In this document: positions 12,076-47,909 of the stretch, piece by piece
Position numbering within the stretch: the stretch's first letter is position 1
How the letters are laid out: each line of letters starts with the position of its first letter
Assembly: GCF_900199375.1 (NCBI RefSeq)
Contig: NZ_LT900217.1
Location: 2,232,001 to 2,296,000, forward strand
Length of the DNA stretch: 64,000 nucleotides
Direction of reading: 5' to 3'
Source of the DNA: Gordonibacter urolithinfaciens
GTDB lineage: Bacteria > Actinomycetota > Coriobacteriia > Coriobacteriales > Eggerthellaceae
The notes under the pieces: model-generated
The model's input: the letters and a program-made list of their open reading frames with translations, nothing else
Database searches by the model: none
Told to the model about the DNA's origin: nothing
Made by a program: the position numbers and the translations under genes

Positions 12076-12104
12076 AACCGCATCCAAATGACGGAAGGAG
12101 CGAA

Positions 12105-20768: not shown

Positions 20769-20899
20769 GTCGAGTCCGTTCCGGGGAGGCGCGTTGTGGG
20801 GACGCGTGCGAGAAGCGAAGGGGGATGGTCTATGCGACAACCTCTCATCTGCTATTTCAACATGGAGAACGCGAGAGAACGAGGAATGGGGAGGAACGA

Positions 20900-23844: not shown

Positions 23845-23919
23845 AAAAGCGGTGCCGAGAGCGCGGGGCTGCGTGTCCCATGGCGCTCTCGGCCGACATG
23901 ACGGAAAGGAAGAACGACC

Positions 23920-24897
23920 ATGGTTGAGTTGCAGACGACCTGGAGCTGGCTGCCGGCGATATACCTGTTCCTCGGCGGTTTGGGCGCGGGCGCGTTTCTG
24001 ACGGCGTCCATCTTGCGCCTGGCGAAGCCGGGGCGATTCAAGAAGACCGTGACGGGAGGCGTGTGGACGGCCGTGGCGGCGCTGGCCATCGGGTTGCTGG
24101 CGCTCGTGTCCGAGGTGGAGAAACCCTTCCAGGCCATGATACTGTTCAAGAGCTTCGTGAACGGCTCGTCGTGGATGACCGTCGGCGCGTGGCTGCTGCT
24201 GGTCACGTTCATCGTGTTCGTGCTGAGCGCGCTGTTCACCACCGACAAGATCGCCGACTGGCTGTCTTCGGCGTGCAAGCCCCTCGGACAGGCGCGCGCG
24301 GGCATCAACAAGGTGCTCGCGGTGGTCGGCATCCCGCTTGCGCTCGCGGTAGCGGTGTACACCGGCGTGCTTCTGGGCGCGGCGCCCGCCATCCCCCTGT
24401 GGGGAACGTGGCTGCTGCCGGCACTGTTCACCGTGTCGGCGCTCGACACGGGCGTGGCGGCGGTGTCCATCTTCGCGGCCGTTATTGACCGCGACGAGGG
24501 CATCGAGCGCGTGCGTGCGACGCTGGAGAAGGCGGTTGTCGGCTTGGTGGTGCTGGAGGCTGCGGTGCTCGCCGCCTTCGTGATCAACATGCAGGGCGCC
24601 GGTACCGACGAGGCCCGGGCGATCGGGCTGCTCACCGAGGGCGCGCTGGGCGTGCAGTTCTGGCTGCTCGTGGTGGCCGTGGGGCTGGGGTGCCCGCTCA
24701 TCGCGGCCATAACCCAGCTCGTGGCGTCGAGGCAGAAGGACAAGATCGGCCCGGCCGTGCCGGTGGGAGGCGCCGCGTGCGCGCTCATCGGCGGGTTCAC
24801 GCTGCGTTTCGTGGTGCTGGCTGCCGGCCTGCATGCCGCGCTCGTCAGCCCCGCGGCGCTGCAGGCGGTGCAGGGCGCGCTGATGCTGGTTTCGTAA
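23920..24897 (+). CDS. NrfD/DmsC-like membrane anchor and quinol-interacting subunit (operon 1)
   Basis: 325-residue polytopic protein with about nine hydrophobic segments. The opening WSWLPAIYLFLGGLGAGAFL is characteristic of NrfD/PsrC-type subunits, which exchange electrons with membrane quinones without binding heme. TGVLLGAAPAIPLWGTWLLP in the middle is a further family feature. AAGGAA precedes the ATG. It completes a catalytic-FeS-membrane trio with the two genes upstream, followed by a TorD chaperone gene. Confidence 0.9.
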   Translation: MVELQTTWSWLPAIYLFLGGLGAGAFLTASILRLAKPGRFKKTVTGGVWTAVAALAIGLLALVSEVEKPFQAMILFKSFVNGSSWMTVGAWLLLVTFIVFVLSALFTTDKIADWLSSACKPLGQARAGINKVLAVVGIPLALAVAVYTGVLLGAAPAIPLWGTWLLPALFTVSALDTGVAAVSIFAAVIDRDEGIERVRATLEKAVVGLVVLEAAVLAAFVINMQGAGTDEARAIGLLTEGALGVQFWLLVVAVGLGCPLIAAITQLVASRQKDKIGPAVPVGGAACALIGGFTLRFVVLAAGLHAALVSPAALQAVQGALMLVS

Positions 24898-28799: not shown

Positions 28800-29161
28800 A
28801 AGGGTATTCCGTTTCTCTTCGACGGGCGTCCGCCTCTGCGGAACCGCTCCGTGGTCGCACCCGCTCCAGCGGCGTGCCTTGCGCTTGACTCGAGCCGCTT
28901 TCTGCATCTGTGAGCGTCATCAGCGTGCGCAAAAGAGAAACAAGAAAGAATTTCGTGCAAAGCGACTTACCAGTATGGGGGTTTGCGGGGCGCGCAGCGA
29001 CGGGAATCTCGCGAAACCGCCCGGTTATGCGCGAAACTCCACAATTGGCGGAGGGGGGCGAGTCGTATCAAAAAAATCTCAGTTCGTGGCTTTTCCAACA
29101 GATTATTCCGAAATAAATATTATTCTCATATTAGTATATATTTTGAAGGGGCAAGGGGACT
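28800..29161. promoter_or_regulatory. Divergent intergenic region with AT-rich promoter of the importer operon
   Basis: 362 bp between divergent genes with no supportable coding sequence. The last 70 bp (about 29090-29146) are very AT-rich against a GC-rich background and include ATATATT-type -10 candidates and an imperfect dyad AAATAT...ATATTT (about 29115-29145), which could bind a metal-dependent repressor. No riboswitch was recognised. Confidence 0.4.
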
Positions 29162-30184
29162 ATGACTTCGAAACGTTCGTCAGCGGGAGCGATCGTCATC
29201 GCGGTGGCGGTGATGGTTGTGCTGTTCTTCGGCTCGTTCATGGTCGGGCAGTATCCCATCGATCCGGTGGGGGTTGTCGAGATCATTGGGGCCCAGCTGT
29301 TCGGCTTCGACTGCTCGCAAAGCGACATGGCCCAGACCATTGTGTGGAAAGTGCGCCTGCCTCGCATCTGCGCCGCGCTGCTGGTGGGCGCAGCGCTCTC
29401 CATTGCCGGCGCCGTGTACCAAGGGCTTTTCAAGAACCCCATGGTTTCGCCCGACATATTGGGTGCCTCGTCGGGTGCGGGCTTCGGCGCGGCGCTGGCC
29501 ATCCTTTTGTCGCTTCCTTATGCGTTCATCCAAGTGAACGCATTCGCGTTCGGCATCGTGGCCGTGGGGCTGGCCTACTTCGTGTGCCAGCGCGTCAGCC
29601 GTGGCAAGGATGCCATTCTCATGTTGGTGCTGGGCGGCATGATAGTGTCCACCCTGTTCTCGTCGTTCATCACGTTGACGAAGTACGTGGCCGATCCTGA
29701 TAGCAAGCTGCCCGAGATCACGTACTGGCTCATGGGCAGCCTGTCCACAGTGAACCTGCAAGACATCTTGTTCTTGCTGCCGCCCCTTCTCGTCGGCATC
29801 GCACCTTTGGCCTTCCTGCGCTGGCAGCTTAACGCCATGGCGTTCGGCGACGAGGAGGCGCAGGCCATGGGCTTGAACGTGAAGCGGTTGCGCGGGCTGT
29901 TCATCCTGTGCGCGACGCTGCTCACGGCGGCCTCGGTGGCCATCGCCGGCATGATAGGGTGGATAGGGCTCATCATCCCGCATATGGCCCGGTTCATCGT
30001 GGGACCGAACTGCAAGGTGCTCCTGCCCATGTCGTTCTTGGTGGGCGGCAGCTTCCTCTTGCTGGTGGACAACGTGGCGCGCAACCTGTTCACCGTCGAG
30101 ATCCCGCTGGGCATCCTCACGTCCATCGTTGGCGCGCCGTTCTTCTTCTACCTATTGCTGAAGAGAAAGAAGGAACAGCTATGA
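29162..30184 (+). CDS. FecCD-family ABC importer permease
   Basis: 340-residue inner-membrane permease of the BtuC/FecD/FhuB type, with about ten hydrophobic helices. WKVRLPRICAALLVGAALSIAGAVYQGLFKNPMVSPDILGASSGAG is split over the conserved N-terminal family motif, and GWIGLIIPHMARFIVGPN contains the second signature, where the ATPase docks. The substrate class is iron-siderophore, heme, cobalamin or a related metal complex. AAGGGG lies ahead of the ATG. It overlaps the ATPase gene by four bases. Confidence 0.92.
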   Translation: MTSKRSSAGAIVIAVAVMVVLFFGSFMVGQYPIDPVGVVEIIGAQLFGFDCSQSDMAQTIVWKVRLPRICAALLVGAALSIAGAVYQGLFKNPMVSPDILGASSGAGFGAALAILLSLPYAFIQVNAFAFGIVAVGLAYFVCQRVSRGKDAILMLVLGGMIVSTLFSSFITLTKYVADPDSKLPEITYWLMGSLSTVNLQDILFLLPPLLVGIAPLAFLRWQLNAMAFGDEEAQAMGLNVKRLRGLFILCATLLTAASVAIAGMIGWIGLIIPHMARFIVGPNCKVLLPMSFLVGGSFLLLVDNVARNLFTVEIPLGILTSIVGAPFFFYLLLKRKKEQL

Positions 30185-31032
30185 TCTTGGAGGCACGCGG
30201 CGTATGCGCCGGGTACCGCGACGTCGACATCGTGCACGACGTGAGCTTCGAGCTGGAGAGCGGGGAGGTGCTGTGTCTGCTGGGACCTAACGGCGTGGGG
30301 AAGACGACGCTGTTCAAGTCGCTTCTGGGCTTCATTCCATTCTCGGCAGGCGGGCTGTATGTGGACGGGCGTGCGGTGGACCACCGTCGCCGGAAGGAGA
30401 CGGCCTCGCTCATCGGCTACGTGCCGCAGGTGCACGAGCCGCCATTCCCATTCGTGGTCATCGATGTGGTGGTCATGGGATCCATCGCACGGGCCGATGC
30501 GTTCGCGGGACCGGGGCGCGACGCGTTCGACGAAGCCGACGAGCTGCTGGAGCTGCTGGGCATAGCGTATCTGCGCAACCGTGTGTACACCGAGATCAGT
30601 GGCGGAGAGCGGCAAATGGTACTCATCGCCCGCGCGCTCATGCAGAACCCGTCGTTCCTCATGATGGACGAGCCTACGTCCAGTCTGGACTTCGGCAACC
30701 AAATGCGGGTGCTCGCGCAGATCTGCGCGCTCGCTCATCGCGGCGTGGGGATCATCATGACGTCGCACTTCCCCGACCATGCGTTCCTGTGCTGCGACAA
30801 GGCTGCGGTCATGAGCCGCACGAGCCCGTTTCGCGTGGCGGACGTGGGCGACATCGTGTGCGAGGAGACTTTGGAGGAGGCGTACGGCATTCCCGTGAAG
30901 GTGGCGTCCATCGACGTGCCGGAGCATCCCGACGGGACGGTGACCACGTGCGTGCCGCTGTTGAAGACGAAGGCGCATTCGTGTCCGTGCGGGGAAGAGG
31001 GCTTGTTCGGCGTTGACGGGAGGGTGCGGTGA
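30181..31032 (+). CDS. FecE-type ABC importer ATPase
   Basis: 283-residue ATP-binding subunit. Walker A is GPNGVGKTT (residues 35-43), the Q-loop YVPQVHEP, the signature ISGGERQMVLIARAL, Walker B LMMDEPTSSLD and the switch histidine in MTSHFPDH. After the ATPase core it has a Cys-containing tail (TKAHSCPCGEEG) that is not typical of the family and could bind metal. It pairs with the FecCD permease just upstream. Confidence 0.92.
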   Translation: MILEARGVCAGYRDVDIVHDVSFELESGEVLCLLGPNGVGKTTLFKSLLGFIPFSAGGLYVDGRAVDHRRRKETASLIGYVPQVHEPPFPFVVIDVVVMGSIARADAFAGPGRDAFDEADELLELLGIAYLRNRVYTEISGGERQMVLIARALMQNPSFLMMDEPTSSLDFGNQMRVLAQICALAHRGVGIIMTSHFPDHAFLCCDKAAVMSRTSPFRVADVGDIVCEETLEEAYGIPVKVASIDVPEHPDGTVTTCVPLLKTKAHSCPCGEEGLFGVDGRVR

Positions 31033-31973
31033 TGAGCGGTAAGGCGAACGGCTTCGTGGCGGCAGACGCGCCTTGTAGCTTGCATGAGCTGATCGAGGAA
31101 ACGCTGCACATCACCTGCGCAGATGGTCTGATGCCTACCGTGAGGCGCTTGTGTTTCGGCGCGCGGTGGGCTGTAGTGGAGCTGTCGGATGGACGTGCGG
31201 GGCGTGCGTTCACGTTCAACGGGCAGCATGCGGTGTATGGGGCGCTCGACTTCGAGTACATGAGGAGCTTGCAGAGCTTAACGGGCGTGTATGCGGACGA
31301 TGCGGTGGCGCAGCTATTGGACGAGCACGAGCATGGGGCTGTCGTCGGGGCCGCCGATGATGCGGCGTACCGCTCGCTTCGCCGCAGCGTGGCGCTGGCG
31401 GTTGCGAACGCGCTTTCGTGCGAGGTGAATGCACCCGAAGCGCTGACTGAGCGCGGCTTTGTCGTCTCGGATTCGTCCGACCGGTCGTTTTTCCGCCCCG
31501 ACGACGCCGTGGTGCTGGTGGGCGCGGGCATGCTGCTGCGGGAGGCGGCCGCCATGTGCGCCTCGCTCGACGTGGTGGACCTGCGTCCGCGTGCTGCGCT
31601 GCAGAGCGTGCTCCTGGATGCCGATGGCGTGCGCACGGGTCCGGGCACGGTGCGGTTCCATGACGTGGAGAACACCGGGGCGCTTGTCGCGCAGGCCGAT
31701 GTCGTGGGTATAACGGGATGCGCGCTGGAGAACGACAGCCTGTTCGATATCGCTCGCCTGCCGCGGCGCGCGCGGGAGTTCGTGATGTTCGGGCCGTCCG
31801 CGCAAGCGCCGATGGAGTTGTTCGCCGCTCTGGGTGCAACGCGCGTTGTGGCAAGCCGCATTGTGGATGCGGATGCCCTTATCGAGGGCATGCTGGAGGC
31901 CTTCGACGCCGCCGGACCGCGCAGCGCGACCGAAGGCTATGTGGTGACCATGCCCGAGCAGGGCAGGGAGTAA
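31032..31973 (+). CDS. DUF364-like (putative heavy-metal chelation) protein
   Basis: 313-residue soluble protein. The N-terminal part has the feel of the DUF4213 domain (GARWAVVELSDGRAGRAFTF), and the C-terminal half of DUF364, with DDAVVLVGAGMLLREAA, a nucleotide-binding-like glycine loop, followed by ADVVGITGCALENDSLFDIARL and VMFGPSAQAPMELFAALG. Proteins of this type are linked with metal or metal-chelate metabolism, but no reaction has been firmly assigned. The start is ATG 31032, overlapping the ATPase stop; GTG 31029 is also possible. It sits inside the importer operon, suggesting it acts on the imported ligand. Confidence 0.7.
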   Translation: MSGKANGFVAADAPCSLHELIEETLHITCADGLMPTVRRLCFGARWAVVELSDGRAGRAFTFNGQHAVYGALDFEYMRSLQSLTGVYADDAVAQLLDEHEHGAVVGAADDAAYRSLRRSVALAVANALSCEVNAPEALTERGFVVSDSSDRSFFRPDDAVVLVGAGMLLREAAAMCASLDVVDLRPRAALQSVLLDADGVRTGPGTVRFHDVENTGALVAQADVVGITGCALENDSLFDIARLPRRAREFVMFGPSAQAPMELFAALGATRVVASRIVDADALIEGMLEAFDAAGPRSATEGYVVTMPEQGRE

Positions 31974-31991
31974 CGGGAGGAAGGGAGCGCC

Positions 31992-33092
31992 ATGAATGGG
32001 GGATTTCGCATGCTGTCGAGGAGATGTTTCGTCCAGCTCATTATGGCGGCGGGCGCGGTCACGGTGGGCGCGGCGGCGCTGAGCGGTTGCTCGCAGGGCA
32101 GTGGGGAAGACGGCGCTGGAGCAGGTGACGGTGCCAAGCAAGGCGGTGCGGACACGGTGAAGATCGCGCGTCCGGCTACGGTGACGGACGCGAAGGGCCG
32201 CGAGGTGGCGGTGCCGGAACGCATCGAGCGCATCGGCATCACGTGCATGGGCGGAGCGCTCCAAACGATGAGCGTGCTGGGTGGGGCCGACCGCGTGGTA
32301 GTGGCGCCGTCGCCGGCCAAGTCCTCGCCGCTTCTGTTGGAGATATTCCCGCAGTACGAAAGCCTTCCCGACGCCGGTACGTTCGATGACGTCAACATCG
32401 AGACCATTGCCGCTGCCGAGCCCGACTTCGTGTTCGTGTCCAGCACGTCGGACAAGGGCAACGCGCAGATAGAGGATATCGGCATTGCCACGTACACGCT
32501 TTCGACGGCGAACGCATCCGCCGAATCGCTGCGACAGGAATATCAAAACGTTGGCGTGCTGCTGGGCACCGAGGACATCGCGGCCGAGCTCGTGGGGTTC
32601 TGGGACGATTTGATGGGGCGCGTGGAGAAGGGCGTGTCCGCTCTGCCCGAGGGCGAGCGGCTCACGGTGTACCGCTGCGCCGCCGCCATCACGAAGGCGA
32701 GTCATACGCCGTGGGCCTCGAATTGGATACGCACAGCGGGCGGTGTTCCCGTGGCCGATGACGGCACGACGGGCGACGTGAGCCTGGAGAAGATTGCCGC
32801 ATGGGATCCTGATGTCATCAGCACCTCGGCGAAGGTGGAGGGACTGCTGAACGATCCGAGCCTGCAGAAGCTGAAAGCCATCAAAAACGGTGCCGTGTAC
32901 AAGAGTCCGAAGGGTTGCATGGGCTGGGACACGCCGTCTCCCGAGGTTCCTCTCGGGTTCGCGTGGCTGGCGCAGATGCTCTATCCCGATCGTTTCGAAG
33001 ATATCGACCTCGAGAAGGAGGCGAAAGGCTTCTACGAGAGGTTCTACCACTACGACCTTACTGACGAGGGCTACCAGGCATTCTTCAAATAA
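31992..33092 (+). CDS. Tat-dependent ABC substrate-binding lipoprotein, copy 1
   Basis: 366-residue solute receptor of the FepB/BtuF class for the FecCD importer. The N-terminus carries SRRCFVQL (Tat) and ends in LSGC, a lipobox, so the protein is exported folded and lipid-anchored. The mature part has two lobes joined by a helix; TVTDAKGREVAVPERIERIGI and the segment following are typical. AGGAAGGGAG precedes the ATG. A second, similar receptor gene follows 60 bp downstream. Folded export hints at a tightly bound ligand or cofactor. Confidence 0.88.
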   Translation: MNGGFRMLSRRCFVQLIMAAGAVTVGAAALSGCSQGSGEDGAGAGDGAKQGGADTVKIARPATVTDAKGREVAVPERIERIGITCMGGALQTMSVLGGADRVVVAPSPAKSSPLLLEIFPQYESLPDAGTFDDVNIETIAAAEPDFVFVSSTSDKGNAQIEDIGIATYTLSTANASAESLRQEYQNVGVLLGTEDIAAELVGFWDDLMGRVEKGVSALPEGERLTVYRCAAAITKASHTPWASNWIRTAGGVPVADDGTTGDVSLEKIAAWDPDVISTSAKVEGLLNDPSLQKLKAIKNGAVYKSPKGCMGWDTPSPEVPLGFAWLAQMLYPDRFEDIDLEKEAKGFYERFYHYDLTDEGYQAFFK

Positions 33093-33152
33093 ACGCCAAC
33101 ATGCGGTCGCGGGGATAGCCTGCGGTCGCGGGAAAGAAAGGATGTGCTACCG

Positions 33153-34250
33153 ATGGACCAGAACATGAATCTGCTCACGCGCCGGCGTTTCGTCGAGCTG
33201 CTAATGGCAACCGGCGTCGTTGCTGTGGGGTCAGCTACGCTCGGGGGTTGTGCGCAGGGTGGCGATGCCGGCCAGAAGGGCGATGCCGCGAAGGATGAGG
33301 CGGATGCAGGGGCGCAGGCCGAGGCGTCAATTGTCGTGGACGCGAAGGGCAACGAGTTCGCCATACCCGACAGTGTGGAGCGCATCGCCATCACGTGCAA
33401 TGGCGGCACCACCCACGAGGTGGCCATCTTCGGCGCGGCGGACAAGATCGTGGCACAGCCCTCCATGAAGAAGTTCCCGCAGCTGCTGAAGATGTATCCG
33501 CAGTTCAACAACGTGGTGAACGCCGGCTCGTTCGACGACCTCAACATTGAGGCCCTGGTGGCAACCGAGCCCGACGTGGCGCTAGTGGGCGTGAGCTCCG
33601 ACAAGGGCAACGCGCAGATCGCCGAGGTGGGAATCCCCACCTACGTCATGCTCATCGGATGGGCGGCCATCGATACGCTCAAGCAGGAGTTCCTGAACGT
33701 GGGCAAGATCCTCGGCAACGAGGAGAAGGCACAACGGCTGGTCGACCACTGGAACGCCACGCTGGGCGATTTGGAGAAGAAGGTTGCGAAGATACCTGCG
33801 GGCGACCGCAAAAAGGTGTATTACCTAAGCGGTGCCGACATCACGAAGGCGAACACCGGCGACTGGGGCCGCACGTGGATCGATGCGATAGGCGCCGACT
33901 TCGCCGTGCCCGAGACCGACCTCAACGGCGACGTGACCGTGGAGAAGGCGCTCGAATGGGATCCGGATATCATCGTCGTGCAGGGCGGCAGCAATCTCGA
34001 CGAGCTCTACGGCGCCGAGCAGGTGCAGGATCTCAAGGCCATCAAGAACAAGCAGGTATTCTCCATCCCCATCGGCGGCTTTTGGTGGGATCGCCCGAGC
34101 CCCGAGGCGACGCTCGGCTTCTTATGGCTGGCCCAGACGGTGTATCCCGAGTATATGGGGGACATCGACCTGGCGGCAGAGACCAAGGACTTCTTCAAGG
34201 AGTTCTACGGCTACGATCTCTCCGACGACGAGTACGCGTCGTTCTTCTAA
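33153..34250 (+). CDS. Tat-dependent ABC substrate-binding lipoprotein, copy 2
   Basis: 365-residue paralogue of the preceding receptor. It has TRRRFVELL (Tat), then LGGC as lipobox, and shares the order VVDAKGNEFAIPDSVERIAITCNGG and SSDKGNAQIAEVGIPTYV. The two receptors have clearly diverged in the binding-lobe segments (for example around the NTGDWGRTW region), so they may deliver related but different ligands to one permease. ATG 33153 is preceded by AAGGA at longish spacing; GTG 33144 is an alternative. The operon ends at a hairpin at 34272. Confidence 0.88.
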   Translation: MDQNMNLLTRRRFVELLMATGVVAVGSATLGGCAQGGDAGQKGDAAKDEADAGAQAEASIVVDAKGNEFAIPDSVERIAITCNGGTTHEVAIFGAADKIVAQPSMKKFPQLLKMYPQFNNVVNAGSFDDLNIEALVATEPDVALVGVSSDKGNAQIAEVGIPTYVMLIGWAAIDTLKQEFLNVGKILGNEEKAQRLVDHWNATLGDLEKKVAKIPAGDRKKVYYLSGADITKANTGDWGRTWIDAIGADFAVPETDLNGDVTVEKALEWDPDIIVVQGGSNLDELYGAEQVQDLKAIKNKQVFSIPIGGFWWDRPSPEATLGFLWLAQTVYPEYMGDIDLAAETKDFFKEFYGYDLSDDEYASFF

Positions 34251-34271
34251 GCGTTCCCCTTCCCTGGAACG

Positions 34272-34311
34272 GCCCCGGGTGCTGTGCCGAAGCCGCCGCA
34301 GCGCCCGGGGC
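34272..34311. terminator. GC-rich hairpin between convergent genes
   Basis: 34272-34284 pairs with 34299-34311 (13 bp, one G-U-type position) between the receptor gene and the convergent Crp/Fnr gene. Confidence 0.65.
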
Positions 34312-34340
34312 GTAAGCAGCTGCGGGGACGAGGGAGGCGG

Positions 34341-35009
34341 CTACGACAGGCGGTGGAGCTCGAAATGCTTGCGGGAGAAGGTGAGGTAGCCGTCTTTCTG
34401 GAGGCGGCTCAGCTCGTGGGAAAGGGCGCTGCGCTCCACGTAGAGCGCGTCGGCGAGTTCTTGCCGGGTGTAGGGGATGTCGAATGCGGAGCTGCCGTGG
34501 AGCGCGGCCTGGTCGGACAGATAGGCAAGTACCTTCTCGCGCGTGGAGCGGTTCGATACGATGCCCAGCTTGCCTAGCAAATCGGCGTTCATCTGCAGGG
34601 TGATGCGGGCCAGGTTCTCGCGGATGCGGTTGACGTGCACCATGCAGCACGGCTTGGCTTCCACATGCCGCTCGAGGTTGAACTGCAGCAGCGTGCACGG
34701 GCTGCTGGCAACGACGTCGGCAGGCAAAGGGAGATTTAGCTTGAAGAACTGCTCGGCTGCGAGTACCGAGCCGGCGGCGTATTCGCCCAAGATGGAGCGG
34801 TTGCCCCAGTAGTCGTTGCTCACAAGCTGGGCGCGCCCCTCGCAGAGGTAGCCGGTGCTGCGCTGTGCCTCGCCGCGGCCCAGGATGCGCTCGTGCTTGC
34901 TGAACGTGGCGAGCGTCGCATTGAGGCAGGAGAGCACATGGGGAACCTTTTCGGCCGGAACGCCTTCGAACAGCGGGAGGTTGACGGGGAGGGCGGCAAG
35001 GTCGGACAC
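34341..35009 (-). CDS. Crp/Fnr-family transcription regulator
   Basis: 222-residue regulator: residues 1-140 form a cyclic-nucleotide-binding-type beta roll (LFEGVPAEKVPHVLSCL, RILGRGEAQRSTGYLCEG), and the C-terminal 75 residues form the winged helix with TRQELADALYVERSALSHELSRLQKDG. It lacks the clustered N-terminal cysteines of classical FNR, though CC in AKPCCMVHVN could be redox- or metal-active. It is divergent from the nitrogenase-like operon and convergent with the importer operon, so it may control both. A dyad at 35029-35044 lies at its own promoter. Confidence 0.85.
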   Translation of the reverse strand: MSDLAALPVNLPLFEGVPAEKVPHVLSCLNATLATFSKHERILGRGEAQRSTGYLCEGRAQLVSNDYWGNRSILGEYAAGSVLAAEQFFKLNLPLPADVVASSPCTLLQFNLERHVEAKPCCMVHVNRIRENLARITLQMNADLLGKLGIVSNRSTREKVLAYLSDQAALHGSSAFDIPYTRQELADALYVERSALSHELSRLQKDGYLTFSRKHFELHRLS

Positions 35010-35028
35010 GGGGCAGCTCCTTCGGCTT

Positions 35029-35044
35029 TTGGTGGTAAAACCAA
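35029..35044. promoter_or_regulatory. Candidate Crp/Fnr operator
   Basis: TTGGT (35029-35033) and ACCAA (35040-35044) form a perfect dyad with a 6-bp spacer, 20 bp in front of the Crp/Fnr start codon and about 105 bp from the NifH-like start. The layout suits autoregulation and joint control of the divergent operon. Confidence 0.45.
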
Positions 35045-35148
35045 CTGAAATTATCCTGGTTTATGCATTATCTTACTTCAAGGATTAATGAGAGGCAAGA
35101 TTGGCTCGGGATTTCGCAGGGAAGCGCACGGAGAAGGGACAGGATGCG

Positions 35149-36030
35149 ATGTTGAGAATCGCGGTGTACGGAAAAGGCGGCATCGGGAAGTCGACGACGG
35201 TGTCCAACCTGGCGGCCGTACTGGCGCTGCGGGGCTACACGGTCATGCAGATCGGGTGCGATCCGAAGGCCGACTCCACGTACGTGCTCATGCACGGCGA
35301 GCGCATTCCCTCGGTGCTCGACCTCATGCGGAAGGCGGCGAACCCCACGCTTGAGGACGCCGTGCACCGCGGTTTTGCAGGCGTGCTGTGCGTGGAGGCG
35401 GGCGGGCCGACGCCGGGCACGGGATGCGCGGGGCGCGGTGTCATTACGGCGTTCGAGCAGCTTGCCGCGCTGCATGCCTACGAGGAGCTCGCGCCGGATA
35501 TCGTGCTGTACGACGTGCTGGGAGATGTGGTGTGCGGCGGCTTCTCGCTGCCGCTGCGCGGCGAGCACTCCGACGTGGTGTACGTGGTCACGTCGGGTGA
35601 GATGATGTCGATGTATGCGGCTTCGAACATCGCGCAGGCCCTTGAGCGGTTCAAGGCGCGCGACTACGCGCGCTTCGGCGGCCTGGTGCTGAACCGGCGC
35701 GACGTGGCAGATGAGCGCGCACTGGTGGAGAGTCTGGCAGACGAGCTGGGGACGGGCATTGTGGCCGATGTTCCTCGCTCGGCAGACGTCCACGCGTGCG
35801 AGCAGGAAACGCTCACGGTGATCGAAGGCGCCCCTGCAAGCGCGGCGGCGCGTGCCTATGGGGCCCTGGCCGATGCCGTGCTGGACGAGGCGGGGTTGCC
35901 CCGCGCGAAGGCGGGAATTGCAGGGGAGCCGAGCGAGAAGGCTGCCGTGCCAACGTCGAATGCGAAAGCGGCCGCTGCGGTGGCGCTTGCGGACGGGCCC
36001 AAGGCGGAGGGGGACGGCCGTGGCCTCTGA
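35149..36030 (+). CDS. NifH-like reductase ATPase of a nitrogenase-like system
   Basis: 293-residue homologue of nitrogenase iron protein. The P-loop GKGGIGKST (residues 8-16), GCDPKADST, the first cluster ligand region TGCAGRGVITA (Cys93) and the second DVLGDVVCGGF (Cys129) are all present, so a homodimer bridging one [4Fe-4S] cluster is expected. ATP hydrolysis would drive low-potential electrons to the component-1-like partners encoded next. The last 45 residues are an Ala/Lys-rich extension. ATG 35149 is used; the frame continues upstream to a weak TTG. No nif assembly genes are nearby, and the importer and MoeA neighbours argue against nitrogen fixation. Confidence 0.9.
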   Translation: MLRIAVYGKGGIGKSTTVSNLAAVLALRGYTVMQIGCDPKADSTYVLMHGERIPSVLDLMRKAANPTLEDAVHRGFAGVLCVEAGGPTPGTGCAGRGVITAFEQLAALHAYEELAPDIVLYDVLGDVVCGGFSLPLRGEHSDVVYVVTSGEMMSMYAASNIAQALERFKARDYARFGGLVLNRRDVADERALVESLADELGTGIVADVPRSADVHACEQETLTVIEGAPASAAARAYGALADAVLDEAGLPRAKAGIAGEPSEKAAVPTSNAKAAAAVALADGPKAEGDGRGL

Positions 36031-37306
36031 CCTGTCGTACTTCATCCCGCACCACGGCCGTCCCAAGGTGTCGCTGCGCATTCCGGAGAGCTTCAACCTG
36101 TATGTGTGCCCTCCCTCCTGCGTGCGGCGCGTGTCGATCCGCGCACTGCGCAACGACACGCGTGGGGCGATGGGCTTTTTGTTCCTCACCGAGGCCGACG
36201 TGGCCACAGGCGCGTACGAGCACGCCGTTGCCGTGGCTGTCGCCGAGGCGCTAACAACGCTCGAACGGCCTCCACGCGCGTTCTTCATCCATCTGAACTG
36301 CATCGATGACTTTCTCGGCACTGATGAGGACGCCCTGCTTGACGAGCTGCGCGGACGGTTTCCGGGCTTCGGATTCGCCGTGGTGCGCATGAACCCCATT
36401 GCCGCCGACCGGGGGCTGTCTACGGGGTTGCGTATCCATGATAGGCTCTACAGCATGTTGGAGCCAACGCCGCACCGCGACAGCGCGGTGAATCTTGTGG
36501 GCACGTTCGCCGATATCGGAGATGACTGCGAACTGTTCGGGGTGATGCGGGCCTGGGGGGTGCGCGAGGTGCGCCAGCTGTTCTCGTGTGCGGACTTCGA
36601 GGCGTACCAGCGGTTGGCGTCAAGCCGGCTGAACGTGGTGTTGGCGCATATCGGCTCGTATGCGGCGGCAAACATGGAGAGGCGCCTGGGCATTCCGCGC
36701 GTCGACGCGCCGGTGTCCTACGACTTGGACGAGGTAGGGCAGCAGTACCGCGCGATCGGCTCGGCGCTTGGGCGGGCCGGCGGGGTGGTCGATGGGACGT
36801 GCTCGCAAGAGGGTCGGGCGTTCGAAGGGTGCCAGGCGCCGGGAGTGGCGGCCGATGACAAGGCGGCCCGTCTGCTTGCGCAGGCCGAGGGTGCGGCACG
36901 GGATGCGATCGCGCATGCGCGCGAGGTTTTGGGCGACACGCCGGTCATTGTGGACTCCTCTGCCGCCATGCGCCCGTTCGCGTTGGCGAAGGCGTTGGCG
37001 GGTTACGGGTTCTCCGTGTGCGCTGTGTTCGCGTTACATGAGAAGGACGATGATGCCGAGGAGCGAGCCTGGGTTGCTGCTCAGGCGCCCGGCATCGTCG
37101 TCGTGCGCGGCGAGAGCTACGAGGGCATCCTCGATCTGGGGCTGCCTGCCGATGCCATATGCATCGGCTTCGACTGTGCCTATCTGCTGAAGGCGCGGCG
37201 CTTCGTGGACGTGCAAAAGGACGAGGGCTTGTTCGGATACCAGGCCGTGCGGCGGCTCATGCGGCTGATGGAAGCCGCACTCGATGGCGATACGGTTTGG
37301 GAGTGA
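36020..37306 (+). CDS. Nitrogenase component-1-like subunit A
   Basis: 428-residue protein of the NifD/NifE/BchN-like superfamily, recognised from gene context and weak hallmarks: an early YVCPPSC with two Cys that could ligate a cluster, three Rossmann-like segments (DSAVNLVGTFADIGDD, LNVVLAHIGSYAAANME, GDTPVIVDSSAAMRPFALAKAL) and a late GFDCAYLLKARRFVDVQKDEGLFGYQA. It begins with GTG 36020 behind GGAGGGGG and overlaps the NifH-like gene by 11 bp. It probably forms a heterotetramer with the next gene product; the active-site cofactor and substrate are unknown. Confidence 0.75.
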   Translation: MASDLSYFIPHHGRPKVSLRIPESFNLYVCPPSCVRRVSIRALRNDTRGAMGFLFLTEADVATGAYEHAVAVAVAEALTTLERPPRAFFIHLNCIDDFLGTDEDALLDELRGRFPGFGFAVVRMNPIAADRGLSTGLRIHDRLYSMLEPTPHRDSAVNLVGTFADIGDDCELFGVMRAWGVREVRQLFSCADFEAYQRLASSRLNVVLAHIGSYAAANMERRLGIPRVDAPVSYDLDEVGQQYRAIGSALGRAGGVVDGTCSQEGRAFEGCQAPGVAADDKAARLLAQAEGAARDAIAHAREVLGDTPVIVDSSAAMRPFALAKALAGYGFSVCAVFALHEKDDDAEERAWVAAQAPGIVVVRGESYEGILDLGLPADAICIGFDCAYLLKARRFVDVQKDEGLFGYQAVRRLMRLMEAALDGDTVWE

Positions 37307-37312
37307 TGCGCT

Positions 37313-38644
37313 ATGGCCCGATTGTCCCTGTTCCTGCCCTCGTTCGCCGCCGACTACTCCGGCGTGTGCTCGTGCCTGTTCGATCTTGATGCCCTGGTGG
37401 TGGTGGCCGACGCTGCGTGTTGCACGCGCAACTATATCGACTACGACGAGCCGCGCTGGTCGCGCGGCAAGACCACCACGCTGTGCGCGCAACTGCGCAC
37501 TTTGGACGTGGTCATGGGCGACGAGGCCAAGACCGTGGCGAAGGTGGCCGCCGCGGCGCGCGAGCTGGAGCCGCGCATGGTGGCGCTGCTGGGGTCGCCG
37601 GTGCCGGCCATCACCGGCATGGACTTCCGCGGAATGGCGCATGACATCGAAGACGCGACGGGCGTGCCGGCGCTCGGCTTCGCCACTACGGGCTTCGCCA
37701 CCTATGAGAGCGGCTTGGATCTGGCGCACCGGGAGCTGGCGGAGCGGTTCGGGCCCGCAGGCGACGGGATGCTGCGCGGCGGCGGCGACGGACGTCCTGC
37801 GCTTGCTCTTCCGGCCAGGCCGACTGCGGACGGGCGGCCGGAGGGGACGGGCCCGTGCGGGCTGGCAGCCTCTCTGGAACGGCCGGCCGTGAACGTGCTC
37901 GGACTGACGCCGCTCGATTTCGGAGGGGGTCCGAATGCAGAAGACCTGCGGGAATGCCTTGATGGCGCCGGGCTTGCGGTGAACGCCACATGGTGCATGG
38001 GCTTGTCGCTTGAAGGCGTGGCGCAGGTCGAAAAGGCTTCGGTCAACCTCGTGGTTTCGGCGGGGGCGCTCGGGGTCGCCCGGGTTCTTGAGCGAGCATA
38101 CGGCACGCCGTATGTGGTGGGTCTTCCCCTGGCGGGCGCGCAGGCCGGCCTCGTGTGCGAGGCGCTGCGCCGGGCCGCATGTGGCGGCGCGTCGTCATAC
38201 GCGTTCGCAGGCGGTTTGCATGCTGAAGGCTTCGATGCGGGGGTGCTGCCAGGGACTTCGCGAATTGCATTTGACGCGCGGATAGATGCGTCCGACGCAG
38301 GGGGCGAGGCGGTACTCGTAGTGGGCGACTGGGTGTGCGCTGCCTCGGTGCGCTCGGCGCTGCGTCTTTCCGGCTGGAGCGGCCCTGTGACGGTGGCGAG
38401 CCTGTTCGGGCAGCGTCCCGGATTCGCCGAGCCAGGCGACGTTGCCTTGGCGGGCGATGCCGACCTAGCCGTCCTCGTGGCACGCGGCGGGTTCTCCGTT
38501 GTGGTGGGAGACCCGCTGCTCGCCCGTATCCCCGGCGTGCCGGGTGCGCGCCACGTGCGGACGGCGCACCCGGCCGTATCCAGCGATCTTTTCGCCAAGG
38601 AGGTGCCACGCTACTTCGTTGACGATATCGTGCGGAGGCTCTAG
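37313..38644 (+). CDS. Nitrogenase component-1-like subunit B
   Basis: 443-residue protein of the nitrogenase component 1 superfamily. YSGVCSCLFDLDALVVVADAACCTRNY followed by YDEPRW (given here as adjoining parts) corresponds to the N-terminal cluster-binding region of NifD/K-like proteins, with Cys at about residues 18, 20, 35 and 36. Later segments VALLGSPVPAITGMDF and NVLGLTPLDFGG resemble the Rossmann units of the fold. About 40 residues near position 150 are Gly/Pro-rich and look like an insertion. It lies 7 bp after subunit A. Confidence 0.8.
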   Translation: MARLSLFLPSFAADYSGVCSCLFDLDALVVVADAACCTRNYIDYDEPRWSRGKTTTLCAQLRTLDVVMGDEAKTVAKVAAAARELEPRMVALLGSPVPAITGMDFRGMAHDIEDATGVPALGFATTGFATYESGLDLAHRELAERFGPAGDGMLRGGGDGRPALALPARPTADGRPEGTGPCGLAASLERPAVNVLGLTPLDFGGGPNAEDLRECLDGAGLAVNATWCMGLSLEGVAQVEKASVNLVVSAGALGVARVLERAYGTPYVVGLPLAGAQAGLVCEALRRAACGGASSYAFAGGLHAEGFDAGVLPGTSRIAFDARIDASDAGGEAVLVVGDWVCAASVRSALRLSGWSGPVTVASLFGQRPGFAEPGDVALAGDADLAVLVARGGFSVVVGDPLLARIPGVPGARHVRTAHPAVSSDLFAKEVPRYFVDDIVRRL

Positions 38645-38676
38645 GTTCATACCGGCAGACAACAAGGAGGACGACG

Positions 38677-39873
38677 ATGAAATTCGATCATGAGAAGGCG
38701 CTGACGCGCGCCGAGGTGCTGAAGGCGCTGAAAGCGCGCTGGGAGTTCGAGAAGCGTACCGAGCGCGTGCCGGTGGGCGAGGCATGCGGGCGCGTGCTTG
38801 CACAGGATTGCCATGCGGCGTACGATCTGCCGCGGCATCGCGTGTCGTCGTTCGATGGCATCGCCGTGCGGGCGGCCGACTTTGCGCAGGGCGTCCCCGA
38901 CACCTGCGAATGGGTGCGTGGCGTGCACTTCACCCAGGCCGATACCGGCGATGACTTCCCCGACGAGTTCGACACGATCATAGCGGCGGAGGACGTGGGA
39001 TACGACGAGGCGGGGCGGCTCATACTCAATTCTGCCCTCGAGGTCAAGGTGGGCAACGCTATCAAGCGCGCGGGCGCCACGATGGGCAAGGGCGAGCTGC
39101 TCTACGAGGCGGGCACGCTGCTCGGGCCCGAGGCCCTGGCTATTCTGGCGGCCGGCGGCTGGGCCGAGGTGCCCGTGGTTGCGCGCTTGAAGGTGGCCTA
39201 CCTTCCTACCGGCACGGAGCTGGTGCCCGTGGGCACTGTGCCCGAGCGTGGGCAGAACGTGCAGACGAACTCGCTTATGCTGGGCGCCTATTTCGCGCAA
39301 TGGGGCGCGGAGATGATTGCCTATGACATCGTGGCGGACGATCGCGCGGCCCTGAGCATCGCCATCGACCGTGCGCTGGCCGAGGCCGACGTGGTGCTGG
39401 TCAACGGGGGTTCGTCGCGCGGCTCGGAAGATTTCAACTCGGAGCTTCTGCAGGAGTGCGCGTCGTGGTTCTCGCACGGTGTGAAGGCGGTTCCCGGACG
39501 TCCCATCGGCCTGGCAGTTATCGAAGGCAAGCTGGCCATCAACGTTCCCGGACCTATGATTGCGGCATATCTGGCGGCCGACTGGCTGGTGAGGGGCCTA
39601 GTGTGCCACTACTATGGCCAGCCGATGCCGCAGCGCGTGAAGGTGCCCGCCGTGCTCGATGCGCCGCTGGGCGCCCGCCCCGGTTTCGAGCACCTGGCGC
39701 GTCTCGTGGCTCATGACGTGGGCGGTGTGCTGCATGCGGCGCCGGTTCCGAACTCGGCAACGTTGGCCGAGAACATTCGCTCGGTGAACGCCTTCTTGGC
39801 CGTCCCTGCCGGCGTGCGTTACGAGGCCGGCGATGTGGCCGACATAGAGCTGCTGGGCACGAAAGCGAGGTAG
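38677..39873 (+). CDS. Divergent MoeA-like molybdotransferase
   Basis: 398-residue MoeA/gephyrin-E homologue, the family that inserts molybdate into adenylylated molybdopterin. Family marks include VPVGEACGRVLAQDCHA, VSSFDGIAVRAAD, PTGTELVPVG and GGSSRGSEDF; the last deviates from the usual GG-x-S-x-GD pattern. PGRPIGLAVIEGKLAINVPG, normally the Pro-rich catalytic loop, is also altered. AAGGAGG precedes the ATG. It follows the nitrogenase-like genes by 32 bp, so it may serve that system (metal insertion) and not the general cofactor pathway, or it may support the window's many molybdoenzymes. Confidence 0.82.
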   Translation: MKFDHEKALTRAEVLKALKARWEFEKRTERVPVGEACGRVLAQDCHAAYDLPRHRVSSFDGIAVRAADFAQGVPDTCEWVRGVHFTQADTGDDFPDEFDTIIAAEDVGYDEAGRLILNSALEVKVGNAIKRAGATMGKGELLYEAGTLLGPEALAILAAGGWAEVPVVARLKVAYLPTGTELVPVGTVPERGQNVQTNSLMLGAYFAQWGAEMIAYDIVADDRAALSIAIDRALAEADVVLVNGGSSRGSEDFNSELLQECASWFSHGVKAVPGRPIGLAVIEGKLAINVPGPMIAAYLAADWLVRGLVCHYYGQPMPQRVKVPAVLDAPLGARPGFEHLARLVAHDVGGVLHAAPVPNSATLAENIRSVNAFLAVPAGVRYEAGDVADIELLGTKAR

Positions 39874-44596: not shown

Positions 44597-44798
44597 CTTC
44601 TGTATTGATAATCATAGTGACGTATGGCAGACTATGGCACGGAGGGAATCGGCCGATTTCTGATATGAGGGGAAATCTCGGAAACGCACCGGGTGCGCCT
44701 GCGCCTGCCGTGCGATCGAAGGGGACTGCCGTTCGCAGAACGCTCGCCTTCGTCCGATGCGCCCCAAGGCATTCTGCATCAAGAATGGAGGAGGAGAC

Positions 44799-47261
44799 AT
44801 GTCGGAAACGAAGAGCCCGCATAGCGGACTCACGCGCAGGAGCTTCCTGAAGACGACGGGCGCCGCTGCCGCGGCGACGGCGGTGGTAGGCTCCGGCGCA
44901 GCCCTGACCGGTCTTGCCGAGACTGGCGAGGCTCTGGCAGACGAGGCGGCCCAGGGCGAAACCACGTTCAGGAGCCAGTGTCGCGGCAACTGCGGCAGCC
45001 GCTGTCCGTTGAAGGTGACCGTGCGCGAAGGCCGCGCCGTCAAGGTTACCGCAATGGAATACCCGGGCGAGGACGCGCATCGCCGCCGCCTGTGCGTCAA
45101 GGGCTTCAGCCAGCCGCAGCGCGTCTACGACGCCGACCGTTTGAAGTACCCCCTGAAGCGCGTCGGAGAGCGCGGCGCGGGCGAATGGGAGCGCATCGAG
45201 TGGGACGAGGCGCTCGAGATCATCGCCGGCAAGATGAAGACGGCCCTGGCCGAGCACGGCGGCACGTCGCTGGGCTTCTGGTCTTCCTACGGCTCCTACG
45301 GCTCGCTGAACGGCGCCATGGGCGGCTTCATGTCCGTTGCGTACGGCCGCTTCTGCACGGCCACGGGCGCGGTCATCTTCGGGGCGGGCGCCGACACGGC
45401 GCAGCAGCATGTGCAGTCCACGCTGCTCGGCAACAAGGGCAACGATTTCGCCGACGCGGTCAATGCCAAGACCATCATCACCTGGGGCGGCAACCCCGCA
45501 GAGGCGTACGTGCACGCATGGCAGTACGTGTGCCAGGCGCGCGAGAAGGGCGCCAAGCTCATCACCATCGATCCGCAGTTCACGGCTTCCGCCGCGCATT
45601 CCGACACCTACGTGCCCATCACCCCCGGCACCGACGGCGCCATGATGCTGGCCATGGCCAACTACATCATCGAGAACAACCTGATGGACGTCGCGTACAT
45701 GAAGAGCAGCACGGTGTCTCCGTTCCTGGTGAAGGAGGACGGCACGTACCTGCGCCTGAGCGATTTCGGCGTCGCCCCCACGGAGGGTCCCGTCAACCCG
45801 CAGACCGGCCAGCCCACCAAGATCGATCCGGTCATGGTGTGGGACGAGGCGACAGGCGACAAGGCCCCGCTTCCGAAGGCTGCCGACCCTGCCGTCGAGG
45901 GCTCGTTCGAGATCGAGGGCGTTACGTACAAGACGGTGTTCCAGACCGTCAAGGACAGCATCAAGGACTACTCCCTCGCCAAGGCATCGGGCATCTGCGG
46001 CGTTCCCGAGAGCACGATCGAGGAGCTCGCGCGCATCTACGCCACGGAGGGTCCCGTTTACGTCATGACGTTCCAGGGCCTGGGCCATCACGCGAACTCG
46101 CATCATAACTACAAGAACCTCGCGTTCTTGGCTGCTTTGACCGGCAACGCCGGCAAGCCGGGTGCGGCCATCTGCGGCAACCCTGCCCCGTTCAGCATGG
46201 TTCCCTACAACACGAAGGCGTTCATGGCCGGCAAGCCCGGACCGCGCATCTGCGGCATGTACCTGCCCGAGATCGTGGCGAACAAGAAGTTCGGCCAAGA
46301 CGACATCGACCTGCAGGTGCTGTGGATTCACAACGGCAACGTGCTTTCCTGCGAGTCCGGCCGCCAGGAGCTTATCGAGGCGGTTAAGAAGATCGACTTC
46401 GTGGTATGCGCCGACGTGAACATGAACGACTCCGCGCAGTGGGCCGACATCGTGCTTCCCGTGCCGCATGCCTTCGAGATGGAGGATATCGACCCGGTCG
46501 GCTCCACGCCGTTCCCCGCCTATTACGAGAAGGGCCTCGAGCCGCTGTACGAATGCAAGACCGATGTCGAGATCATGCGCCTTCTGTCCCAGAAGATGGG
46601 CATGGAGAAGATCTACGCCAAGAGCGACCAGGACTTCCTGCGCGACGTGTACAACACGGATACCAACAAGAAGGCCGGCGTGAGCTACGACGACTTCGCC
46701 TCGGGCGAGTTCGTGCGCAACCCCATGACCAAGCCGGAGAACCTCGTTCCGACGTACGGTCCCGCCGAGGGAACGCGCCTGAAGTACTACATCGAGAAGC
46801 CGACTCCGCGCAACAGCTTCGGCCAGGAGATTGCCGATTACGAGAAGCTTCCCTACTACGAGCATGCGAACGAGGCGTATTTGGACAACCCGCTGCGCGA
46901 GAAGTACCCGCTTCTAGGCTGCAGCGAGCACAACAAGTACCACGTGCACTCCCAGCTTGCCGTGACGCCGGTTATCCGCGAGCTCGAGCCCGAGCCCATG
47001 ATCAAGATCAATGCCGCCGATGCCGCCGCTCGCGGCATCAAGCAGGGCGATCTGGTGCGCGCGTACAACGACCATGGGTACGCGGTCGTGAAGGCGCTGG
47101 TAACCGAGGGCATCATGCCCGGCGTGGTTTCGATCCCGCACGGCTTCCAAGCTACCCAGTACGTCGAGGGCCACACGCAGGACCTGACGAACGTGTTCAT
47201 GAACGATTTCTGCTCGAACAGCGCATTCTACGACTTCCTGTGCGAAGTCGAGAAGTGCTAA
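44799..47261 (+). CDS. Tat-exported molybdopterin oxidoreductase catalytic subunit (operon 2)
   Basis: 820-residue DMSO-reductase-superfamily enzyme. TRRSFLKTT near residue 15 is the Tat motif; CRGNCGSRCPLKVTVREG and RRRLCVKGFSQP provide the four Cys of an N-terminal [4Fe-4S] cluster. IITWGGNPAEAYVHAW and VLWIHNGNVLSCE lie in the molybdopterin-binding domains; the final 120 residues form the cofactor-capping domain. GGAGGAGGAG precedes ATG 44799. The enzyme resembles the catalytic subunit of operon 3 more than that of operon 1, but differs enough that another substrate is likely. The acceptor or donor is not identifiable. Confidence 0.9.
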   Translation: MSETKSPHSGLTRRSFLKTTGAAAAATAVVGSGAALTGLAETGEALADEAAQGETTFRSQCRGNCGSRCPLKVTVREGRAVKVTAMEYPGEDAHRRRLCVKGFSQPQRVYDADRLKYPLKRVGERGAGEWERIEWDEALEIIAGKMKTALAEHGGTSLGFWSSYGSYGSLNGAMGGFMSVAYGRFCTATGAVIFGAGADTAQQHVQSTLLGNKGNDFADAVNAKTIITWGGNPAEAYVHAWQYVCQAREKGAKLITIDPQFTASAAHSDTYVPITPGTDGAMMLAMANYIIENNLMDVAYMKSSTVSPFLVKEDGTYLRLSDFGVAPTEGPVNPQTGQPTKIDPVMVWDEATGDKAPLPKAADPAVEGSFEIEGVTYKTVFQTVKDSIKDYSLAKASGICGVPESTIEELARIYATEGPVYVMTFQGLGHHANSHHNYKNLAFLAALTGNAGKPGAAICGNPAPFSMVPYNTKAFMAGKPGPRICGMYLPEIVANKKFGQDDIDLQVLWIHNGNVLSCESGRQELIEAVKKIDFVVCADVNMNDSAQWADIVLPVPHAFEMEDIDPVGSTPFPAYYEKGLEPLYECKTDVEIMRLLSQKMGMEKIYAKSDQDFLRDVYNTDTNKKAGVSYDDFASGEFVRNPMTKPENLVPTYGPAEGTRLKYYIEKPTPRNSFGQEIADYEKLPYYEHANEAYLDNPLREKYPLLGCSEHNKYHVHSQLAVTPVIRELEPEPMIKINAADAAARGIKQGDLVRAYNDHGYAVVKALVTEGIMPGVVSIPHGFQATQYVEGHTQDLTNVFMNDFCSNSAFYDFLCEVEKC

Positions 47262-47273
47262 GGGGGTGCAAGC

Positions 47274-47894: not shown

Positions 47895-47909
47895 GGCGAA
47901 AGGAGAATC

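Follow-up and report, generated by a model that had tools for sequence, protein, structure and literature searches.

A nitrogenase-like complex whose partners look, by sequence, like molybdenum and tungsten genes is encoded within a 64,000-nucleotide stretch of Gordonibacter urolithinfaciens (the window), at a locus of ten genes spanning positions 29162-39873. By phylogeny, the complex falls in a nitrogenase-like clade that is widespread, has not been characterised, and is separate from NifH, CfbC, and BchL. Because of its gene neighbours, its relatives, and its shared control sites, a role in molybdenum or tungsten uptake or handling rather than in nitrogen fixation is suggested. Tentatively, and with somewhat less than an even chance, the complex is read here as an ATP-driven reductase for an imported molybdenum or tungsten species, which an altered MoeA of the same locus would then handle. 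We know of no nitrogenase relative with a role in metal-complex reduction. If true, the reading would make this reaction a new one for the nitrogenase family and would explain how molybdoenzyme-bearing gut bacteria obtain scarce molybdenum or tungsten. The nitrogenase-like genes of the clade are frequent among anaerobes of the gut and elsewhere, and the named partners, a natural knock-out (genome G058), and the shared control site make the hypothesis directly testable.

Gene content of the locus

All ten genes were backed by Pfam models, in agreement with the inventory that an earlier sequence-only reading of the window had given. The importer operon comprises five genes on the + strand, namely a FecCD/BtuC-type ATP-binding cassette (ABC) permease (29162-30184; PF01032, 301.8 bits), an importer ABC ATPase (30187-31032; PF00005, 104.5 bits), a DUF4213 and DUF364 protein with a putative function in heavy-metal chelation (31029-31973; PF04016, 54.3 bits, and PF13938, 43.6 bits), and two class III substrate-binding lipoproteins (31992-33092 and 33144-34250; PF01497, 83.4 and 98.8 bits) that share 45% identity. 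The three models of a FecCD-type importer, PF01032, PF00005, and PF01497 for the class III receptor, all scored above their cut-offs. The permease is 88, 81, and 82% identical to those of G056, G058, and G047, respectively, and matched the BtuC model best, with 247.5 bits and thus below the cut-off of 461. By sequence inspection, both Peripla_BP_2 receptors carry a twin-arginine (RR) signal and a lipobox cysteine, and the PDB matches of the second receptor were 4ovk and HI_1472, which we take to be MolA.

The importer operon is followed by a Crp/Fnr-family regulator on the - strand (34341-35009; PF00027 and PF13545), divergent to the nifH-like gene; Crp/Fnr-related genes also occurred at some other loci and in L163. 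On the + strand, the NifH-like ATPase (35149-36030, start ATG at 35149; Fer4_NifH PF00142, 288.7 bits) precedes the NifD-like component-1 subunit (36020-37306; Oxidored_nitro PF00148, 70.1 bits), most likely starting with GTG at 36020, the NifK-like component-1 subunit (37313-38644; PF00148, 62.4 bits), and the altered MoeA paralogue (38677-39873; PF03453/PF00994/PF03454).

The genome, a single contig of 3.29 Mb, holds three FecCD, two DUF364, and three MoeA-type genes. No Oxidored_nitro gene besides this pair was found in these 3.29 Mb, so the genome is without a NifE/N pair, as the sequence-only reading had noted for the window. The NifD-like protein was matched in 16 of 138 genomes of the family and not in three of the four other searched genomes of the genus, and the locus is therefore patchy. 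The family was taken to be Eggerthellaceae, that of Berryella and Curtanaerobium, from joint protein rows that proved identical (L012/L115 and L024/L116). At locus L110 of the same genus (genome G067, ~9400-12500), comparison with the window shows the NifD- and NifK-like reading frames to be disrupted by an insertion and small indels. As G067 is 82% complete, assembly error is as likely as decay.

Importer linkage across relatives

Relatives were collected by a NifH search of genome contigs, which gave 83 NifH-like genes at the best 80 loci, some of them close kin, from Clostridia, spirochaetes, Methanothrix, Synergistaceae, and Actinomycetota; since only the best-scoring loci were kept, the set is not a random sample. 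Linkage was counted for the 49 of these 83 genes with at least 5 kb on both sides, an importer being scored when permease, ATPase, and receptor genes all shared the strand and lay no more than 8 kb away. An importer was present in 45 of the 49, and with only three FecCD genes in the 3.29 Mb of the source genome this linkage is far above chance. The four relatives without one were L079 and L042, L074, and L081, the last three with AIRS-domain genes. The sequence-only reading had named absence of the importer linkage in related genomes, and placement of the complex in a characterised group, as grounds for giving it up. Neither was found among the groups tested, as the linkage is kept across phyla and the complex falls outside the NifH, CfbC, and BchL references.

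The DUF364 gene was rejected as a mark of the nitrogenase-like genes, as it accompanied 2 of the 49 only and also belongs to a second FecCD-DUF364 operon of the genome without such genes. This second operon, of receptor, ATPase, FecCD, and DUF364 genes (L133 4706-9417, ~2.708-2.712 Mb of the source genome), has no nitrogenase-like genes within its 16 kb and carries two weaker copies of the palindrome described below (7858 and 7891) upstream of its FecCD gene.

On the Sporomusa termitida plasmid pSPTER (L149), nitrogenase-like HDK genes lie with two FecCD permeases, an AraC regulator, a PF00756 esterase, and nearby TonB-dependent receptors, a content that suggests a siderophore unit. Such a neighbourhood would fit an enzyme that uses ATP and a very low potential to strip Fe(III) from chelates of the catecholate type, in which case the MoeA link would be secondary. 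For the window this explanation is very improbable, as the Sporomusa locus belongs to another subclade and the operator and partners of the window are linked to molybdenum.

A shared palindrome upstream of both operons

A palindrome near TTATTCTTATATAAGAATAA was spotted by eye in promoters of the window and its relatives, and a matrix was built on three sites outside the genus (G058, G047, and G056). In the 64-kb window, four places reached at least 18 bits, upstream of the importer operon (29120), of nifH (35051), and of two molybdopterin oxidoreductase genes (20664 for the gene at 20825, and 44555 for the gene at 44757). Shuffles of AT-rich blocks (n=300) gave a mean of 0.09 such blocks and a maximum of 2, and never 4. 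At the two operons of the locus the sites are tandem and form a putative, unstranded operator, at 29103-29139 before the importer operon (starts 29103 and 29120) and at 35051-35087 before nifH (starts 35051 and 35068), with 17 bp between starts in both cases. These were the only pairs in the window with this spacing and at least 12 bits for both sites. The 17-bp spacing was also found in L111, L112, L012, L163, and L190, the second site of L190 scoring 11 bits.

With a less strict pattern based on the four sites of the window, 19 matches (14 places) were obtained genome-wide, compared with 2 for the reversed pattern. Ten places lay outside the window, of which three are copies of one 20-base repeat (219425, 231500, and 2711135) and were dropped from the count; the copy at 2711135 sits between the FecCD and DUF364 genes of the second operon. 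Four of the seven remaining places were beside modA-modB, a dimethyl sulfoxide (DMSO)-reductase type gene, a molybdoenzyme pair, and a MOSC gene, and the other three were near a phosphoglucomutase gene, a MarR gene, and no called gene. ModA (TIGR01256, 110 bits) and ModB (TIGR02141, 216 bits) were both above their cut-offs, and ModC was below.

Three molybdopterin oxidoreductases with a signal of the twin-arginine translocation (Tat) type are encoded in the window, at 20825-24894, 44757-49133, and 58871-61402. The first two have the palindrome upstream and are followed by Fe-S and NrfD genes.

A first candidate, the palindrome TTGGT-N6-ACCAA in the gap between crp and nifH (35029), was set aside; 9 of 100 shuffles of the window yielded an equal number of hits at one mismatch. 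It occurs exactly in the window and in L110, with one mismatch by eye in L109, and was not found in six other scanned loci. It may be a second site.

The altered MoeA

The altered signature loops that the sequence-only reading had described in MoeA proved real and amount to three motif changes. The basic residue before PGR/PGK is lost (V in the window), PGNP has become PGPM, and MTGAPVP has become DTGDDFP. Among 17 linked copies, the loss of the basic residue and the replacement of the canonical-loop GN by GP occurred in all, while DTGDDFP was found in 14 and Arg in PGR in 13. The window protein scored below the curated equivalog cut-offs (best 242 bits versus 534; MoeA model 168 versus 440). 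Its Mg-binding Asp228 is kept, aligned with the Asp of VADD; the Mg-binding role of this residue in MoeA is described in the part of PMC9458074 considered. The canonical MoeA of the genome (L135) retains the usual motifs. A third MoeA (L136 6330-8343) has altered motifs and lies directly 3' of a MoaE-like gene (PF02391), and neither a nitrogenase-like gene nor an importer was found in the 15 kb of L136.

Arg at the PGR place has been connected with selectivity for tungsten in MoeA1 of Methylorubrum (PMC13197769, in the passages considered), and the 13 linked copies with Arg in PGR share this feature. The parallel is only a lead, since the neighbouring Lys is also gone in the linked copies. Both this tungsten-selective MoeA1 and the repurposed MoeA/Glp (PMC11733289, likewise considered in part) resemble the window MoeA as paralogues alongside a canonical MoeA, and the 17 linked copies differ from both in the lost basic residue.

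MoeA adjoined only 6 of the 49 well-flanked relatives (within 8 kb, same strand), and its use as a marker for importer-linked nitrogenase-like genes at large was rejected. Among the Eggerthellaceae loci considered, it adjoined 9 of 16 NifH matches, the window included and L115 and L116 repeating L012 and L024. A joint tree of 90 rows was built without L003, L007, other loci missing H, D, or K, L110 (broken frames), and, by choice, L120, L123, and L124. One clade of 11 rows, two of them identical, had MoeA in all 11 (Shimodaira-Hasegawa-like approximate likelihood ratio test, SH-aLRT, 96) and consisted of Sporobacter- and Pseudoflavonifractor-type Clostridia together with Eggerthellaceae. With rows of less than 4.5 kb on either side omitted, 63 rows were scored, of which 14 had MoeA, and its distribution required at least 3 changes; the MoeA rows outside the clade were the Acetobacterium pair L011/L025 and L117. 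Judged from this tree, the MoeA association chiefly characterises a single subclade, made up of Clostridia and Eggerthellaceae.

Importers and MoeA without the complex

In genome G058 (97% complete), ATPase, receptor, and Crp genes were found together with a permease of 81% and a MoeA of 70% identity, all with their order kept. No Oxidored_nitro gene was found there, and PF00142 matches were partial only, with at most 40.5 bits over positions 5-74, and are ParA-like by our reading. G058 is thus a natural knock-out of the nitrogenase-like genes. Starting about 1.2 kb 3' of its MoeA, the genome has modA (109.3 bits against a cut-off of 62.5), a gene for a fused ABC transporter, moaA (350 bits, cut-off 284), and moaC (198 bits, cut-off 141.5), with no gene called between MoeA and modA in the filtered list of open reading frames. 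The ATPase half of the fused transporter matched many models but passed no cut-off (ModC 185 versus 285 bits; best PhnT2, 221 versus 458).

Three genomes of one genus (G120, G121, and G125; 71-83% complete) hold the importer, two MoeA-type genes, and DUF364, and Oxidored_nitro was not found in them. In four others (G039, G040, G085, and G086), a related importer (54-56%) and an altered MoeA stand beside a different, Nif-type NifHDK set, with PF00148 scores of 203 and 282 bits in L186. From these arrangements, MoeA travels with the importer even without the window-type lineage, and an association with such pairs has arisen in two nitrogenase-like lineages. Nif-type HDK genes (PF00148 up to ~300 bits) beside FecCD importers were observed at L185-L188 and L193, with an altered MoeA at four of the five; these lie outside the window clade.

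Importer and complex could be mere neighbours, that is, two independent operons co-regulated in anaerobic respiration and without a common substrate. The palindrome could then be of Crp/Fnr type and serve molybdoenzyme operons in general, and the importer of G058 is indeed kept without nitrogenase-like genes. Set against the linkage at 45 of 49 loci in several phyla and the second nitrogenase-like lineage, this explanation is decidedly unlikely.

Cysteines, folds, and phylogeny of the nitrogenase-like complex

Cys93 and Cys129 of the NifH-like ATPase, the two cluster cysteines pointed out by the sequence-only reading, are present, and both columns are 100% Cys, gaps aside, in an alignment of 99 rows, the window among them. 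In the component-1 subunits, only D Cys34, D Cys94, and K Cys37 were invariant (22 D and 20 K sequences), and the six P-cluster cysteines of nitrogen-fixing nitrogenase were not present in the pair. In a profile alignment, the position of the cofactor ligand Cys275 is non-Cys where it aligns with NifE, whose Cys we take as the equivalent of the NifD ligand; the region of the ligand His442 aligned unreliably. Owing to the three invariant cysteines and the non-Cys at the aligned cofactor position, the complex is likely a [4Fe-4S]-only enzyme.

AlphaFold models of the D and K subunits (predicted local distance difference test, pLDDT, 85.4 and 77.9) have the component-1 fold. The K model was nearest to subunit B of DPOR (Z 31.0, root-mean-square deviation 3.6, 357 aligned), and the best NifEN and Mar chains reached Z 26.1 and 25.6. 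For the D model, several families tied at Z 22-23. Among solved structures, the D and K profiles both matched NifE best, with 56.7 and 88.7 bits.

In the NifH tree (110 rows), the window is part of a group of 98 rows (SH-aLRT 97), and the reference rows, seven of NifH, two of CfbC, and one of BchL, lie outside it. The branches of BchL and CfbC were flagged long, and the references were these three groups, without Mar, Isr, and BchX; two Methanothrix rows also lie outside the group. Against curated models, the NifH-like protein scored best with CfbC (322 bits, cut-off 402) and reached 192.9 bits with BchL (cut-off 345), both below cut-off. The CfbC model (NF033200) was rejected as a classifier because it is unspecific: L138, L139, and L141 pass it (406-410 bits) yet adjoin nifDK-type genes. 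These three lie within L154, L156, and L157 of four Methanothrix-type genomes, where NF033200 can misname NifH.

The window resembles DPOR (BchLNB) in combining a NifH-type ATPase with two component-1 subunits and, by inference for the window, in holding [4Fe-4S] clusters only. It differs in its cysteine pattern, in a locus without bch genes, and in a NifH apart from BchL. CfbCD has a single D-type subunit, whereas the window has a separate K gene at 37313-38644. An importer that supplies a metallated tetrapyrrole, to be reduced as by DPOR, COR, or CfbCD, would fit the K fold and the best matches of the permease and the NifH-like protein to BtuC and CfbC, below cut-off as they are. The altered MoeA, DUF364, the modA/moaA context, and the operator point instead to molybdenum, and the NifH-like protein stands apart from CfbC and BchL, long as their branches are. 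No tetrapyrrole gene was found among the annotated neighbours, which are a part of those retrieved. A tetrapyrrole reductase is therefore quite improbable, and what weight it retains is owed to the DPOR-like K fold. The sequence-only reading had combined a metal-chelate or tetrapyrrole substrate with a possible molybdenum step. Its molybdenum part gained from the G058 unit before modA, moaA, and moaC and from the palindrome beside ModABC and molybdoenzyme genes, while its tetrapyrrole part found no such gene to lean on, the nearness of the K model to DPOR notwithstanding.

The best PDB match of the NifH-like protein, at 242 bits, came from the methylthio-alkane reductase complex, namely its NifH-type chain; the next NifH scored 230. 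A Mar/Isr-like reduction of organic sulfur or sulfonates would agree with this match, but it is hardly credible given the non-Cys at the aligned cofactor position, the one invariant Cys of K, and the lack of a radical SAM gene among the ten genes of the locus. MarHDK has six P-cluster cysteines, Cys270/His429, and an [Fe8S9C] cluster, according to the passages of PMC12552129 considered, and no such invariant set is present in the window.

The strongest rival, still unlikely, is an assembly scaffold, in which the NifDK-like pair would hold a cofactor or precursor as NifEN does, the NifH-like ATPase would load imported molybdenum, tungsten, or another metal, and MoeA-like and radical SAM partners would make the organic part. 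It draws on the NifE matches of both profiles and on the HmdB-like radical SAM genes (97-149 bits in six scanned, below the cut-off of 321) or AIRS-domain genes of some relatives. A coupling of metal transport to cofactor assembly was also proposed by Dos Santos et al. 2012 (PMC3464626, in the passages considered). The position of the Cys that holds the cofactor in NifE and NifD is non-Cys here, and no HmdB-like gene was found in the source genome. The HmdB-like protein was rejected as a required partner, as 9 of the 12 searched genomes, the source genome among them, gave no match and one of the three matches was weak (1.3e-4).

ABC transporters beside some nitrogenase-like genes had already been reported by Dos Santos et al. 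2012 (PMC3464626). As far as the passages considered go, the clades described there (Methanocorpusculum/Desulfitobacterium and Coprococcus/Dorea) resemble the window in two conserved D cysteines, one K cysteine, the absence of ligands of the iron-molybdenum cofactor, and their occurrence in anaerobes, and links to MoeA, DUF364, or a molybdenum regulon go unmentioned. With two D cysteines, one K cysteine, and an adjoining ABC transporter, the window belongs to that importer-linked clade. 'Pseudo-nifH' genes have been reported from Clostridia, methanogens, and guts (PMC8597730, considered in part), and genes of the window clade are probably among them. In open-access titles, abstract openings, and passages, no published link of nitrogenase-like genes to MoeA, DUF364, a molybdenum-type regulon, or molybdenum uptake was found, nor was a published substrate for the clade.

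Proposed mechanism and its weighing

In the proposed reduction of an imported molybdenum or tungsten species, the two lipoprotein receptors and the FecCD permease with its ATPase would import the metal as an oxyanion or, more likely, as a chelator complex. The NifH-like dimer would pass electrons in an ATP-dependent manner to a [4Fe-4S] cluster at the interface of the NifD- and NifK-like subunits, and the imported complex would be reduced in a cavity equivalent to the protochlorophyllide site of DPOR. The reduction would free the metal or ready it for insertion, the DUF364 protein may aid chelation, and the altered MoeA would receive the metal or a pterin intermediate. Both operons would be turned on through the shared palindromes by the Crp/Fnr protein or another molybdenum-linked regulator.

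Several results weigh against this proposal. For 43 of the 49 well-flanked relatives, no MoeA gene lay on the same strand at a distance of up to 8 kb, and what the clade does as a whole need not therefore concern molybdenum. Nor was MoeA in view at the sister rows L008 (a short contig) and L024/L116. Judged from its motifs, the altered MoeA has lost canonical insertase residues. In G058 the unit persists without the nitrogenase-like genes, which are thus dispensable for its role there, and in G047 (L190) the orthologous importer stands alone with the palindrome, with neither MoeA nor nitrogenase-like genes beside it. The class III-receptor molybdate importer MolBCA resembles the window importer in fold, HI_1472 being the second PDB match of the receptor. 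Receptor scores against HI_1472 were similar in three classes (131, 133, and 137 bits), one of them from nitrogenase-like loci without MoeA, and MolA likeness was accordingly rejected as proof of a molybdenum cargo and is no evidence for molybdenum. The palindrome was not found at the scanned clostridial loci L004-L006. Its sites are AT-rich, and because the first of them were chosen by eye its statistics are a guide and not proof. At least four of seven outside places would be molybdenum-linked by chance with p = 0.0002 given an assumed 5% of molybdenum-linked promoters, and the molybdoenzymes of the genome, which may be many, are uncounted in this figure.

A wider idea, possible but rather doubtful, is that a family of nitrogenase-like enzymes reduces metal complexes, powered by ATP and coupled to import, with a dedicated FecCD importer for each clade and a different tightly chelated metal to be stripped or primed (iron in the Sporomusa type, molybdenum or tungsten in the window type). 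In the window type, the product would pass to the altered MoeA as a second route to the molybdenum or tungsten cofactor.

Further observations at related loci

At L042, L073, L074, L081, and L082, the nitrogenase-like genes lie beside an AIRS-domain gene that is HypE-like by inspection. Two HD(K) sets and no FecCD importer were in view at L042, L074, and L081. Two adjacent, similar genes lie between the importer and the nifH-like genes at L053 (8073-9847) and L065 (4904-6677); the one gene of these pairs that was scanned is SIR2-like, with a score short of the Pfam cut-off, and also matches Avs5 in part.

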